DNA from: Flavobacterium sp. NG2
GTDB taxonomy: Bacteria > Bacteroidota > Bacteroidia > Flavobacteriales > Flavobacteriaceae
Reading direction: 5' to 3'
Assembly (NCBI RefSeq): GCF_034119845.1
Contig: NZ_CP139420.1
Span: forward strand, 2,916,001-2,980,000
Length of the DNA: 64,000 nucleotides
Of this stretch, positions 41,580-47,301 are shown piece after piece. The first letter of the stretch is position 1, and each line of letters begins with the position of its first letter. A program made the position numbers and the translations under genes. Under the pieces are notes generated by a model. That model worked only from the letters and a program-made list of their open reading frames with translations. It had not been told where the DNA came from and searched no databases.

Positions 41580-44357
41580 ATGACAGGGAAAAATTACTCA
41601 ATTGGTTCATTATGGAGAAGATGGGATTTGCATATTCATACTCCAGAAACAAAAAAAAATGATAATTTCGATGGCGCAACGATTGATGAAAAATGGGACA
41701 ATTACATAAACGATATAAATAAACATTCCGCAGAAATTTCAGTAATTGCAGTAACAGACTATTTGTGTACTGATAATTATTTTAAGTTTATCGATTATTA
41801 TAAAAAAGGAAAATTCACAAAATCATTTGATTTAATTCTTCCAAATGTAGAATTAAGAATTTCACCTGTTACTGCTTCAAGTATACCAATAAATATTCAT
41901 TGCATTTTTAACCCTCAATTTGAAAGTAAAATCCATAATAGGTTTTTTCAAAATTTATATTTCGAATTTAGCGGAAGAAGATTCAAAGCAACTAGAGATG
42001 ATTTAATTGATCTTGGAAAAACACATTCAAACAATCCATCAATGCCCAATAATACAGCTCTTCAGGCTGGTATATTACAATTTGTAGTTCCTTTTCATGT
42101 CCTTAAAGAAATTTTTGAAAAAGATGAAGAATTAAAAAAAAATACTATTATTATAGTTGCAAATGGTAAAGACGGAGTTTCAGGTCTCCACAAACATTAT
42201 GATTATTTTGAAGGTAAACAGGTGAGCGCATTAGATGCCACACGCCAAAATATTTATAAATTTTCAGATTGTATATTTTCATCAAATGATGGTGACAGTA
42301 AGTATTTCTTAGGAAAAAAAACAGATGCTAAAAATAAAATCATAGATGATGAAGATGAAGTAAAACGTAAGTGCGGATCTTTAAAACCATGTTTCCATGG
42401 TTGTGATGCACATGAAAATAAAAAAATATTTAATCCTGACAATAATCAATTTTGTTGGGTCAAAGCTGATCCAACTTTCGAAGGCCTCAAACAAGTTATT
42501 TATGAGCCAAGCGAAAGAGTTAAAGTTCAAGAAAATAATCCTGAAAAAGATTTTGACAAACCTATCTTTACGTCGATAGAAATAAAATCGAATATAAAAA
42601 TATTAAATGATTCTAATTCAGAATTGACTTTTTCTCCAATAATTTTTCCTTTAAATAGAAATCTTGTTTCAATTATTGGAGGTCGTGGACAAGGTAAATC
42701 AATGCTTGTAAATTATCTAGGGCATGGTCTAGGCAAAGAAATAAATCAATCTCTAGCGTCCAAAATAAATTTAGATAATAATTTTAATATAAGTTGGGAA
42801 CAGAATTCTGAAGCTGACACAAAAACTTATTCATTAAATTCTCAAGTTAATTTACCATTCACATTTATTTATCAAAGCAAGGTTAAGGAAATTGCTGAAA
42901 GTTCTGAAAATCTAAAAAAAGAAATTCTAGAAATGCTCGAAGGAGCTGGTTTTAAGAAACCGCAATCAGCGGTTAATGAATTTGAAATAAAAGAAAAATT
43001 CCAAAACTATTGGAACATTCTTGATTGGCTAGATAGAATTGACGAAAGAAACAATAAAATAAATGACGAGAAATTTGTTAAAACTAAGATTGATGAAATC
43101 CAAGATAATATTGATTTGGTTACAGAAGGATCAAACAAAAAACTCTTGGAAGATTATGTCCAAAATATAAATACTATTAACGAAAAAGAGAGCAAACTTA
43201 GAAAGTTAAAAGAATTAAGAAGTGACATCATCAGTTTTAGAGATCAACTTAATGATCAAATTAAAAACTTTGACAATATTTCTAATATTGATACAGAAAC
43301 ACAACAAAGAGAAATAATTGTTGAATTCAGAAAAATTTCCAAAGAAATTATAGAATTTGAACAAAAAAACAAAACGATAAAAGAGGATAATTTTAAAGAC
43401 TTCAAAGGTGATTTATCACAATTACTCAATAATTTAACTGGTTATCAAGAAAGCAAAAATACGCTTGAAGAAAAATTAAGCAGTATAAAAAACAAAAAGA
43501 AAGAGTTAATAGACGTAAAGATATCTTTAAATGAAATTATTCAACATCAAAAAAACACACTATTAATAGAAGGTCATTTCATCAACACGGTATGGAAGGA
43601 CAAAATTTTTGATAACACAGAAAGAGGTCAAAGAGAAAATGAGTTAATTAAAAATATTCTTGCTGACAAAGAAATTTCTATTGAGGGTATAACTTTCTTT
43701 AATATAAATCAATTTATTAAGATTGCAGAAAATTATATTGATGGTAGAGCCTTACGACCTAAATCTAAAGAGAAAATCTTAGAACTATTAGAAATAAATC
43801 CAAGAAATATTTCACATGACGTTTTAAATTATACCATTGAAAAAATAGAAAAAATAAAACATAACAACTCTAATTGCTTTTACAATGGTATAGATAGTGA
43901 CATTTTTCAAATATTTGTTGACCCCGAAATAAAAAACAAGTATGTTTATGTTATACCTGATATTACAATCGGTGGAAAAAGTATAAATAATTTGTCCGCT
44001 GGTCAGAAAGGGACAGTTTATTTATGTTTAAAATTGGCTACACAATTATTTTCAGGTCCAATAATTTTTGATCAACCAGAAGATGATTTAGATAATGATT
44101 TTATAACAAATCATCTAATTGAACTTTTCAAAAAAATAAAAGAATATCGTCAAGTAATTATAGTATCTCATAATGCAAATTTGGTAGTTAATTCCGACTC
44201 AGAACAAGTAATAATTGCAATCAATGAAGATGAAAATTTAAGCTACAATACTGGCGCATTAGAAAACAATGACATAAATCTCGAAATTTGTAGAATACTT
44301 GAAGGAGGCGAAAAAGCTTTTGAAAAACGTCGTGATAAATATAGATACGTAAAGTAA
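41580..44357 (+). CDS. TrlF-type protein: PHP phosphoesterase plus ABC/SMC-like ATPase
   Basis: The 925-residue protein has an N-terminal PHP domain. Its metal ligands are visible as LHIHTPE (His18, His20), VTDY, NVELR, NIHCIF and GCDAHE (near 275). An ABC-type ATPase follows, with Walker A GGRGQGKSM (near 367), a long coiled-coil region about 460-680, the ABC signature LSAGQ (near 806) and Walker B PIIFDQPEDDLD (near 828), then a VSHN H-loop. PHP plus SMC-like ATPase proteins act on nucleic acids or nucleotides, and many sit in mobile or defence islands. The gene is rich in ATA and AAA codons and bounded by inverted repeats, consistent with transfer. No partner gene is evident. A defence role is an inference. 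Confidence 0.8.
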   Translation: MTGKNYSIGSLWRRWDLHIHTPETKKNDNFDGATIDEKWDNYINDINKHSAEISVIAVTDYLCTDNYFKFIDYYKKGKFTKSFDLILPNVELRISPVTASSIPINIHCIFNPQFESKIHNRFFQNLYFEFSGRRFKATRDDLIDLGKTHSNNPSMPNNTALQAGILQFVVPFHVLKEIFEKDEELKKNTIIIVANGKDGVSGLHKHYDYFEGKQVSALDATRQNIYKFSDCIFSSNDGDSKYFLGKKTDAKNKIIDDEDEVKRKCGSLKPCFHGCDAHENKKIFNPDNNQFCWVKADPTFEGLKQVIYEPSERVKVQENNPEKDFDKPIFTSIEIKSNIKILNDSNSELTFSPIIFPLNRNLVSIIGGRGQGKSMLVNYLGHGLGKEINQSLASKINLDNNFNISWEQNSEADTKTYSLNSQVNLPFTFIYQSKVKEIAESSENLKKEILEMLEGAGFKKPQSAVNEFEIKEKFQNYWNILDWLDRIDERNNKINDEKFVKTKIDEIQDNIDLVTEGSNKKLLEDYVQNINTINEKESKLRKLKELRSDIISFRDQLNDQIKNFDNISNIDTETQQREIIVEFRKISKEIIEFEQKNKTIKEDNFKDFKGDLSQLLNNLTGYQESKNTLEEKLSSIKNKKKELIDVKISLNEIIQHQKNTLLIEGHFINTVWKDKIFDNTERGQRENELIKNILADKEISIEGITFFNINQFIKIAENYIDGRALRPKSKEKILELLEINPRNISHDVLNYTIEKIEKIKHNNSNCFYNGIDSDIFQIFVDPEIKNKYVYVIPDITIGGKSINNLSAGQKGTVYLCLKLATQLFSGPIIFDQPEDDLDNDFITNHLIELFKKIKEYRQVIIVSHNANLVVNSDSEQVIIAINEDENLSYNTGALENNDINLEICRILEGGEKAFEKRRDKYRYVK

Positions 44358-44377: not shown

Positions 44378-44418
44378 GACGGCTCTGCCAGTAACTGACA
44401 GAGTGCCCCATGCTTGCG

Positions 44419-44495
44419 CGAGCGTCACGCTCGTGCACACAAAGAAAAGACAAAAACACATATGACAATTGGACCGGGTACGAGCGTGACGCTTG
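44419..44495. repeat. Pair of inverted CGAGCGT(C/G)ACGCTYG palindromes
   Basis: CGAGCGTCACGCTCG at 44419-44433 and CGAGCGTGACGCTTG at 44481-44495 are inverted relatives of each other. Each is nearly palindromic. Similar GC-rich REP-like words are not seen elsewhere in the window. Confidence 0.7.
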
Positions 44496-44534
44496 CACTA
44501 GCTAAATGGAATATAAAATAGGTATCTGTACAAA

Positions 44535-44829
44535 CCCGCTCCGCAAAGTCTTCAGACTTTGAGGTATTTTTAAATTCGATATTAAGAATGACAATCACCC
44601 CAAAGTCTCCTGACTTTTGACTAATCTTGTTAATTGCATTTTGTGAATACTGGATTTAAAACGTCAATATGTTTAGTAGGTTTATCGATTTGTAGATTTT
44701 ATAAAAACATTTTGTGCAAAAGTCAGAGACTTTTAGAACGATTTCGTTTGAAACAACATTTTAAAATTGCGCAAAGTCAGAGACATTTGCGCAGCACGTG
44801 TAATAGAGTTTAGGAACACTACGAAGAGC
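44535..44829 (+). repeat. GTC/GAC hairpin repeat, copy 1
   Basis: A 295-bp unit with four hairpins: 44544-44561 (CAAAGTC TTCA GACTTTG), 44601-44619 (CAAAGTC TCCT GACTTTTG), 44718-44734 (AAAAGTC AGA GACTTTT) and 44769-44792 (GCGCAAAGTC AGA GAC A TTTGCGC). Hairpins 2 and 3, and 1 and 4, are reverse-complement relatives, so the unit forms a nested inverted repeat. The tail ends CGAAGAGC. It lies between TrlF and the Sel1 gene. No coding frame is convincing. Confidence 0.85.
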
Positions 44830-44901
44830 CAATTAAATCAAAAATTGAAAAGTCACGAGCTACAAAACATTTCAAGGAAGTTAAACAACAAATAGAAAAA
44901 A

Positions 44902-45681
44902 ATGAAAAAATATTTTTTGCTCATTATTGGATTGTTATTTATGAATTTTGTCTTCGGTCAAAATGCAGATGAATTAAATATACAATCTAAAGAATTATTA
45001 AAAAAGCGAGACTACGAAAAAGCACTTCCAATTTTGAGAAAATCTGCAGAATTAGGAAATGCGGAAGCTCAATATAATTTAGGTTATTTTCTTCAAAATG
45101 GAGTTGGAATTGTTAAAAACGAAAAAGAAGCTTTTGAATGGTATAAAAAATCTTCCGAAAATGGCTTTAACGATGGTCATTATGCAATGATGATGGCTTA
45201 TGGAAATGGAATTGGAACAGAAATTGACGCTGAAAAAGCATTTGAATACGCATTAAAGTGTGCAAATAATGATGACGCAACTTGTATGTGGAATGTTGTA
45301 AATTGTTTTAAACAAGGTTTAGGGGTGTTAAAAAATACGAATAAAATGCTTGAATGGGCAACAAAATTATCGTTATTAGAAAATCCAGATAATTTAAATT
45401 TAAGCGGAAATATAACTTCGACAAGATTAAGTTTAGCTTATATGTATAGAGATGGTGATAGTTTAGAAAAAGATTATTACAAAAGTTATATTTGGTTTTT
45501 AATCTATAACGAGTTTAAAAAAGACTTTTCTATTATTCAACAAAATCAAATAATCGAAGAAGTTAAAATAGCAGAAGCTAAACTAAACAACAAGCAACTT
45601 AGTACAGCTAAAGATGACGCAGAAAGAATATTTGGAAGAAAATTAATAAATATTGAAAATTTACACAAAGCAGATTTTTGA
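44902..45681 (+). CDS. Secreted Sel1-repeat (TPR-like) protein
   Basis: The 259-residue protein has a signal peptide (MKKYFLLIIGLLFMNFVFGQ). Sel1-like repeats follow: ALPILRKSAELGNAEAQYNLG, then FEWYKKSSENGFNDGHYAMM, then FEYALKCANNDDATCMWNVVN and a later degenerate repeat with LSLAYMYRDGD. Sel1 proteins are adaptor scaffolds for protein-protein contacts, here probably in the periplasm. It sits between hairpin-repeat copies 1 and 2, which suggests that it was carried or inserted with them. Function unknown. Confidence 0.8.
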   Translation: MKKYFLLIIGLLFMNFVFGQNADELNIQSKELLKKRDYEKALPILRKSAELGNAEAQYNLGYFLQNGVGIVKNEKEAFEWYKKSSENGFNDGHYAMMMAYGNGIGTEIDAEKAFEYALKCANNDDATCMWNVVNCFKQGLGVLKNTNKMLEWATKLSLLENPDNLNLSGNITSTRLSLAYMYRDGDSLEKDYYKSYIWFLIYNEFKKDFSIIQQNQIIEEVKIAEAKLNNKQLSTAKDDAERIFGRKLINIENLHKADF

Positions 45682-45702
45682 TAAATTCGAACTGCCCGCT
45701 CA

Positions 45703-46082
45703 CCGCTCCGCAAAGTCTTCAGACTTTGAGGTATTTTTAAAATCGATAGTAAGAATCACAATCATCCCAAAGTCTCCTGACTTTTGACTAATCTTGTTAA
45801 TTGCATTATGTGAATTCTGGATTTAAAACGTCAATATGTTTAGTAGGTTTATCGATTTGTAGATTTTATAAAAACATTTTGTGCAAAAGTCAGAGACTTT
45901 TAGAACGATTTCGTTTAAAACAATATTTTAAAATTGCGCAAAGTCAGAGACATTTGCGCAGCACAGATAATAAAGTTTAAGAACAATACGAAGAGCGGTT
46001 GCATAGGTTTTATGGTTTTTTCCTTCATCGAAATCCACTATAAGACAACAAATTAAAAACATCTCCTCAGGGAAATTACTTC
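45703..46082 (+). repeat. GTC/GAC hairpin repeat, copy 2 with full tail
   Basis: It has the same core as copy 1 (about 295 bp, to 45996) with all four hairpins. It continues into a tail of about 87 bp (CATAGGTTTTATGG, TTCCTTCATCGAAATCCAC, AAGACAACAAATTAAAAAC, ending at GAAATTACTTC). It starts 21 bases after the Sel1 gene stop. No gene is seen in the 1.2-kb stretch from here to 46871. Confidence 0.85.
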
Positions 46083-46423
46083 CCCGCTCCGCAAAGTCTT
46101 CAGACTTTGAGGTATTTTTAAAATCGCTATTAAGAATGACAATCATCCCAAAGTCTCCTGACTTTTAACTAATCTTGTTAATTGCATTTTGTGAATACTG
46201 CTGGATTCAAAACGTCAATAATTTGGTTAGAAGCTTTGTCGATTTGTAGATTTTTTATAAAAACATTTTGTACAAAAGTCAGAGACTTTTAGAACGATTT
46301 CGTTTAAAACAACATTTTAAAATTGCGCAAAGTCAGAGACATTTGCGCAGCACGCATAATAAAGTTTAGGAACACTTCGAAGAGCAGTTACATAGGTTTT
46401 GTGGTTTTTTCCTTCATCGAAAC
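46083..46423 (+). repeat. GTC/GAC hairpin repeat, copy 3 with short tail
   Basis: The full four-hairpin core is followed by a truncated tail (to TTCCTTCATCGAAA) that runs straight into copy 4. Hairpin 2 ends GACTTTTAAC instead of GACTTTTGAC, and a few bases are inserted in the AT-rich middle (ACTGCTGGATTC). Confidence 0.85.
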
Positions 46424-46811
46424 CCCGCTCCGCAAAGTCTTCAGACTTTGAGGTATTTTTAAAATCGATTTTATGAATGACAATCATCACAAAGTCTCCT
46501 GACTTTTGACTAATCTTGTTAATTGCATTTTGTGAATACTGATGGATTCAAAACGTCAATAGTTCGGTTAGAAGCGCTATCGATTTGTAGATTTTATAAA
46601 AATATTTATGCAAAAGCCAGAGACTTTTAGAACGATTTCGTTTAAAACAACTTTTTAAAATTGCGCAAAGTCAGAGACATTTGCACAGCACACATAATAA
46701 AGTTTAGGAACAACGCAAAGAGCGGTTACATAGGTTTTGTGGTTTTTTCCTTCATCGAAATCCACAATAAGACAACAAATTAAAAACATCTCCTCAAGGA
46801 AATTACTTCCC
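46424..46811 (+). repeat. GTC/GAC hairpin repeat, copy 4 with full tail
   Basis: It keeps all four hairpins with small changes. Hairpin 3 reads AAAAGCCAGAGACTTTT and hairpin 4 ends TTTGCACAGC, which breaks one arm base. The tail is the long form seen in copy 2. About 60 bases separate it from the VOC gene. Confidence 0.85.
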
Positions 46812-47243: not shown

Positions 47244-47301
47244 AAGATACAGCTTTGTCTCGTCTTGAAAAAATACAAAACATGATTATGTACCCGATTT
47301 T

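Follow-up and report, generated by a model that had tools for sequence, protein, structure and literature searches.

The window, by which we mean the whole stretch of 64,000 nucleotides of Flavobacterium sp. NG2 that was analysed, contains a group of hairpin-rich repeats, and raises the question of whether these are remains of a transposable element or a structural element of RNA or DNA, the two readings between which the original prediction had left the choice. Four related units of 294-303 bp, with 91.2-95.2% pairwise identity and four hairpins each, are indeed present at the predicted places. As set out below, each of them is very probably a non-autonomous (MITE-like) derivative of a Flavobacteriaceae RAYT element that has lost most of its transposase.

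Layout of the array and its hairpins

The units, the DNA repeated with them and the gene that they enclose are located as follows, with the basis of each assignment in brackets:

44535..44829, minus strand: unit c1, very probably an internally deleted RAYT element (alignment, host-genome copies, RAYT-element model)
45703..45996, minus strand: unit c2 (alignment, host-genome copies, RAYT-element model)
46083..46385, minus strand: unit c3 (alignment, host-genome copies, RAYT-element model)
46424..46723, minus strand: unit c4 (alignment, host-genome copies, RAYT-element model)
45997..46082, no strand: tail of c2, neighbouring DNA repeated inside the array (host-genome matches, unit comparison)
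44902..45681, plus strand: gene for a Sel1-repeat protein of 259 aa, enclosed by c1 and c2 (ORF and domain, homologues in relatives)

The tail had been described as part of copies 2 and 4 and as cut in copy 3. A copy does follow c2, a cut copy of 36 nt follows c3 (46388-46423) and a full one follows c4 (46724-46811), but the tail does not belong to the dispersed element: outside the array, matches to c2, used as a query of 386 bases, extend to base 302 at most, and the tail is therefore local DNA. The three adjacent units (c2, c3 and c4) would have arisen through tandem duplication together with this tail.

Homologues of the enclosed Sel1-repeat gene in relatives G029 and G271 (89% and 84% identical; L075 and L076) lie in other neighbourhoods, with homology that stops close to either gene border; inverted repeats recognised by eye (GGTTGGGCGAT / ATCGCCCAACC) surround the G029 gene. 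A second palindromic repeat, whose arms contain GCGAGCGTCACGCTCG, adjoins c1 at 44406-44503 and has a counterpart in relative G017 (L065), with 79% identity over 98 bp. A TrlF family AAA-like ATPase of 925 aa is encoded at 41580-44357 and, with a match to the anti-phage protein Ppl that falls below the cut-off, is a candidate defence gene.

In each unit, approximately the last 20 codons of a transposase gene stand between two terminal inverted repeats of about 100 bp, and every repeat has a GCTC/GAGC tip and two hairpins, one inner and one outer. The units are oriented on the minus strand, so that the end on the right in the window (hairpins 3 and 4) is the transposase-upstream end. In c1 the hairpins are placed as follows:

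44544..44561, no strand: hairpin 1, outer hairpin of the transposase-downstream end (terminator scan, folding)
44602..44617, no strand: hairpin 2, inner hairpin of the transposase-downstream end (folding)
44718..44734, no strand: hairpin 3, inner hairpin of the transposase-upstream end (folding)
44768..44793, no strand: hairpin 4, outer hairpin of the transposase-upstream end, with a bulged A conserved elsewhere (folding, end comparison)

Folded as single-stranded DNA, all four c1 hairpins have z-scores between -2.5 and -3.9. Hairpins 2 and 3, predicted to be reverse complements of each other, are nearly so, the loop excepted. The same prediction holds only partly for hairpins 1 and 4: hairpin 1, a 7-bp stem (CAAAGTC/GACTTTG) closed by two further pairs, is a shortened, unbulged version of the outer hairpin at the opposite end, whereas the stem of hairpin 4 consists of 11 pairs and a bulged A (TGCGCAAAGTC-AGA-GAC-A-TTTGCGCA). 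This bulge recurs. Of 75 ends examined, 63 fit the core pattern, and 61 of these have a single unpaired base (58 times A, 3 times G). The 75 ends are those left of 194 after length and redundancy filters, and they were also used for the counts of tip and foot motifs given below. A one-base bulge is a feature common to the hairpins of RAYTs and IS608. Within the subfamily most stem columns are conserved and there is little covariation; of five predicted pairs, two have a double change. For the named structure, double changes occur in 5 of 17 pairs and 17 of 1270 cells, and its covariation score is above all 500 shuffles, which among related sequences is not decisive.

Two further observations concern the outer hairpin. 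In several loci (L030, L046, L049, L050, L052, L097, L099 and L107) the tip of an end (GAGC.GGG) is joined or nearly joined, by eye, to ACATTTGCGCAGC or a close variant, which forms the central part of the outer hairpin; cleavage or slippage may recur at this point. At L069 / L025, in an element whose RAYT frame is open, the outer hairpin of the RAYT-upstream end is interrupted by another palindrome, TGAACTGCCCCC...GGGGGCAGTTCA.

The nested arms permit two pairings, and the whole of unit c2 folds as DNA with a z-score of -4.96, as would suit a structural or regulatory RNA in its own right with alternative folds. Such an RNA seems to us highly improbable: the units have no Rfam match at gathering thresholds, single ends are about as common in the host genome as full units (9 versus 8, by our own grouping), and both the symmetry and the gene stub inside fit a transposon. 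A small-RNA role finds no support here. At the same thresholds Rfam recognises in the window a tRNA and four Flavo-1 RNAs (RF01705; 12713-12793, 26293-26372, 47297-47386 and 59599-59679), none of them at the units. The Flavo-1 copy at 47297 has many dispersed matches in close relatives, and Flavo-1 may therefore be a dispersed repeat itself.

Transposase genes between the ends and their remnant in the units

That the units are MITE-like elements is borne out by relatives that keep a transposase between such ends and by the transposase stub inside the units. In relative G057, the product of the ORF between two such ends is identified as a REP-associated tyrosine transposase both by NCBIfam NF047646 (E 9.6e-27, above the cut-off) and by Pfam Y1_Tnp. 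The profile of the RAYT alignment matches the TnpArep structure 4er8, weakly (E 0.0066); a single RAYT sequence gave no match against solved structures, and the predicted structure is of low confidence (pLDDT 58).

We examined 80 loci drawn by similarity of the RAYT protein alone, the best 80 of 345, all from named records and mostly Flavobacterium. With our model of the end, 52 of them have ends on both sides, 12 on one side and 16 on neither. Seven of these last 16 were inspected, and in all of them hairpins flank the gene on both sides, the downstream ones being inverted copies, at least in part, of those upstream (weakly so at L140, E 0.32). Since these hairpins carry other stem letters, the letters differ between subfamilies while the hairpin is kept; compensatory changes in the arms, on which the original prediction had set store, are few inside the subfamily. 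Loci were also drawn by DNA match, a draw biased towards ends, from which RAYT matches of 160 residues or fewer were left out. Here, both ends are present at 12 of the 13 RAYTs with 69.8-100% identity; the remaining locus is cut short where its contig starts, and two of the 13 contain internal stops. Of three RAYTs at about 45% identity, none is flanked by both ends, and for one of them there is a hit upstream. RAYT outnumbers every other family among the 148 ORFs near elements (12 by Pfam, 13 by NCBIfam), and it is absent among the 25 families listed, of 114, for a control set of 58 ORFs (Pfam).

The units themselves retain approximately the last 20 codons of such a gene:

44630..44698, minus strand: RAYT C-terminal stub in c1, NLQIDKPTKHIDVLNPVFTKCN and then a stop (alignment with c3; coordinates by eye)
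45797..45865, minus strand: RAYT C-terminal stub in c2, NLQIDKPTKHIDVLNPEFT and then an earlier stop (alignment with c3; 1167-bp offset from c1)
46180..46248, minus strand: RAYT C-terminal stub in c3, NLQIDKASNQIIDVLNPAVFTKCN and then a stop (element, protein and DNA models)
46522..46589, minus strand: RAYT C-terminal stub in c4, NLQIDSASNRTIDVLNPSVFTKCN and then a stop (element and DNA models)

The stubs of c3 and c4 were recognised by model and those of c1 and c2 by alignment with them; the stub in c2 stops a few codons early. With a model of the RAYT-bearing element, built from 51 of the 52 elements, the best alignments to the units are on the minus strand and cover the C-terminus of the transposase and the end that follows it. 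As a protein, in a search with 74 of the 80 peptides, the c3 stub ranks top of 6241 frames and covers RAYT positions 175-196 of 199, with an E-value (0.15) that is weak alone. We also made a DNA model free of the ends, from the 23 of 51 elements in which the search pattern was found, and searched it against the window and ten loci of the host itself: five of its six best hits are unit interiors (c3, c4, L009, L010 and L011), with E-values from 0.0018 to 0.76, and in each of these the strand of the hit is consistent with which of the two ends is of the short type. Units c1 and c2 gave no hit with this model on their own, and the stub E-values are weak one by one. From the placement and strand of the stubs, the units consist, from right to left in the window, of left end, deletion, gene stub and right end. 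What would be expected of a MITE derived from a RAYT element is thus found, namely ends common to the autonomous element, a transposase remnant and dispersed multiple copies. By analogy with the RAYT and IS200/IS605 families, the RAYT (a HuH/Y1 nuclease) would recognise the hairpins on single-stranded DNA and would have moved the units in trans.

With a gene enclosed between c1 and c2, the array could also be read as an integron-like series of cassettes, in which the units are recombination sites and c1, the Sel1-repeat gene and c2 form a cassette. In relative G091 such ends do alternate with single ORFs, in one direction throughout the array, and the Sel1-repeat homologues (84 and 89% identity) stand in different neighbourhoods of two relatives. 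The RAYT found between the ends in relatives speaks against a recombination site, as does the near-equal closeness of c1 to c3 (94.9%) and to c2 (95.2%), and we regard this reading as very unlikely.

Copies, transcript ends and RHS loci

If the units are RAYT derivatives, they should be dispersed, and the original prediction had called for a search for copies in other genomes. These exist: 46 of 101 and 176 of 398 same-genus genomes match, in overlapping samples that include the host. In the host genome at least 23 matches to c2 were found, and this count is a lower bound since only 40 of 75 candidates were scored. Using the end profile and our own grouping, we recognise in the host a total of 8 full units (4 in the window, 1 with a weak end) and about 9 single or partial ends, that is, about 4 full copies and 9 single or partial ends, approximately 13 in all, besides the units of the window. 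No match to c2 was found in plasmid or phage collections, which gives no support to mobile replicons as carriers.

A comparison with empty sites, also proposed in the original prediction, gave no clean case for any unit. Around the window, synteny is lost in the 12 relatives examined, none of which shows a clean empty site, and one of them, G323, has ends of its own nearby. For the copy near infB, 22 of 23 relatives have no end in the fetched flanks, and the host differs from them by a block of about 1.1 kb, not by the element alone. In this copy (L013, 3509-4284) a full unit adjoins an antitoxin-like gene (HigA/HigB, judged by eye), whose toxin partner is apparently truncated at the edge of the element.

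A single RAYT was detected in the host genome. It has 44% identity and different ends, and the cognate RAYT was not found there, so that the copies in the window look orphaned. Because that sole RAYT belongs to another subfamily, movement of the units in this host has, judging from sequence, probably stopped, and the window copies are probably immobile now. That no cognate RAYT was detected bears on present activity, not on origin. The host RAYT (L062, 4522-5025) has other hairpins in the same nested two-hairpin layout, and behind it lies a partial duplicate of its C-terminus and end (by eye).

Whatever their origin, the units may end transcripts, since their outer edges lie near stop codons and hairpin 1 with its T-run is terminator-like. 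Within 35 bp of outer edges there are, in raw counts, 28 stops and 6 starts at 150 ends in relatives, and 4 stops and no starts at 14 ends in the host; these are 164 of the 194 ends, those matched short of model position 100 being left out. Hairpin 1 is followed by a T-run on the plus strand in every unit (equivalents at 45711, 46092 and 46433), and four terminator-like sites were found in the units where 1.2 were expected. As a side effect, hairpin 1 and its T-run would likely terminate transcripts entering from the neighbour on the left in the window. It is a serious possibility, if somewhat short of an even one, that the host retains the units as transcription terminators or stabilisers of mRNA 3' ends, a REP-like use which would be compatible with a RAYT origin and which also agrees with the predominance of REPs downstream of coding regions reported in the consulted text of PMC3733652. 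Such a use leaves the transposase stub and the full elements unexplained, the other end of the unit did not score as a terminator, and edges near stops are perhaps just tolerated sites.

The surroundings of the elements in some relatives suggest a further role. Single genes, one with a match to Imm26, lie between successive element ends in G091. One element edge there is the starting point of a 59-residue stub, which shares 49% identity with the C-terminus of an RHS-type protein in G170 (recognisable by eye from its RHS repeats). An immunity-like gene follows both the stub and the RHS-type protein; other ends in G091 precede short truncated frames (by eye). An RHS-repeat protein is found among elements in G054. 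Of 20 genomes searched for RHS genes, six bear them; in these six, 4 of the 19 element clusters, which were grouped and typed by hand among the matches listed, lie within 6 kb of an RHS match, against 0.1 expected (simulated P 5e-6, uniform placement); G054 was left out of this count because its RHS gene is below the match threshold. The four loci share an arrangement: an ORF that is immunity-like by position only comes next on the 3' side of the RHS gene, and the nearest element follows 17 to about 600 bp past this ORF.

These observations would fit a role of this RAYT subfamily, in Flavobacterium, in bounding RHS toxin-tip/immunity cassettes, in which the ends mark the limits of orphan cassettes, supply repeats for swapping or stacking, and insulate immunity genes by termination. 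We put this forward tentatively and think it rather unlikely as a whole: 15 of the 19 clusters are away from RHS, and in G162 a stub 88% identical to that of G091 has no element end in the fetched flanks. RHS loci and elements may simply share accessory regions. Beyond RAYT and two ParE_toxin matches, the 25 Pfam families listed, of 92, for the 148 ORFs near elements show no enrichment of immunity or toxin families, and neither does the NCBIfam listing. The host has no RHS match. That unit c1 forms the edge of a toxin tip is not supported, as the frame of 47 residues from c1 to the Sel1-repeat gene matches, in 239 genomes, the host and, partially, G029 (overlapping the Sel1 gene), so that no toxin tip was found beside this gene in that search. 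Elements lie beside RHS toxin loci in some relatives, which was not seen for the window itself. If the link is true, a single-strand transposase would help to explain the build-up of polymorphic toxin cassettes in Flavobacterium.

Comparison with known systems

The units share with IS200/IS605 elements a relative of the Y1 transposase and subterminal hairpins. IS608 has a bulged hairpin, as here, and its ends are not inverted repeats of each other. A match to known IS ends, which would have counted against the original prediction, is true insofar as the units carry the ends of an IS200/IS605-related element. Like REPs, REPINs and BIMEs, they are non-autonomous palindromic repeats tied to a RAYT, clustered and near the 3' ends of genes; unlike them, they are much longer, have two hairpins per end and contain a coding remnant. 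The 5' GTAG/GTGG foot of canonical REPs and REPINs is largely missing: of the 65 outer hairpins recognised in the 75 ends, only 6 have GT[AG]G at a distance of up to 8 nt from the foot.

The original prediction knew of no named family with this layout. At the level of the transposase this does not hold, as the consulted parts of PMC6006769 describe the RAYT/TnpA-REP subclass 2.6, mostly of Bacteroidetes, whose flanking 'atypical secondary structures' are copied elsewhere in the genome. Several features agree with that description: the NH[LIV]H and WQ motifs are present here (NHIH in 67 and FWQY in 69 of 74 proteins), the HuH-to-Y distance is 81 against a median of 82, and in both cases the flanking hairpins have no consistent GTAG foot and are copied elsewhere in genomes. 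The YIH[QN]NP motif fits only in part, being YIHLNP in 62 of 74 proteins and YIHQNP in 1 of 74. TIRtrons (TIRYTs), in the corresponding text of PMC3733652, likewise have a RAYT-like gene between long terminal inverted repeats, some of them double-palindromic, and form repeat families; the GGGGWSAS common to some of their repeats is at the tip of only 2 of our 75 ends, and 20 of 26 TIRYTs are placed in subclass 2.1 in the text of PMC6006769.

Since these two papers, in the parts consulted, describe subclass 2.6 and RAYT-like genes between inverted repeats, the kind of transposase is already known. Nested double-hairpin ends and derivatives with a gene stub are not described in the consulted parts of PMC6006769, nor was such a combination found in those of PMC3733652 or among the listed titles of related literature. 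Among the titles listed, we likewise found nothing on RAYTs in Flavobacterium and nothing relevant that joins RAYTs with Rhs or immunity, or Flavobacterium with MITEs or orphan Rhs toxins; no literature on IS200 elements as terminators was found. On the sequence comparisons made here and the text consulted, the nested double-hairpin ends with a gene stub would thus be a variant on a known transposase group. For this RAYT group, of whose repeats that text says no more than that they are 'atypical secondary structures', they provide a defined substrate in the form of two double-hairpin ends with a bulge, and they show that the group leaves transposon-like derivatives with a coding stub.
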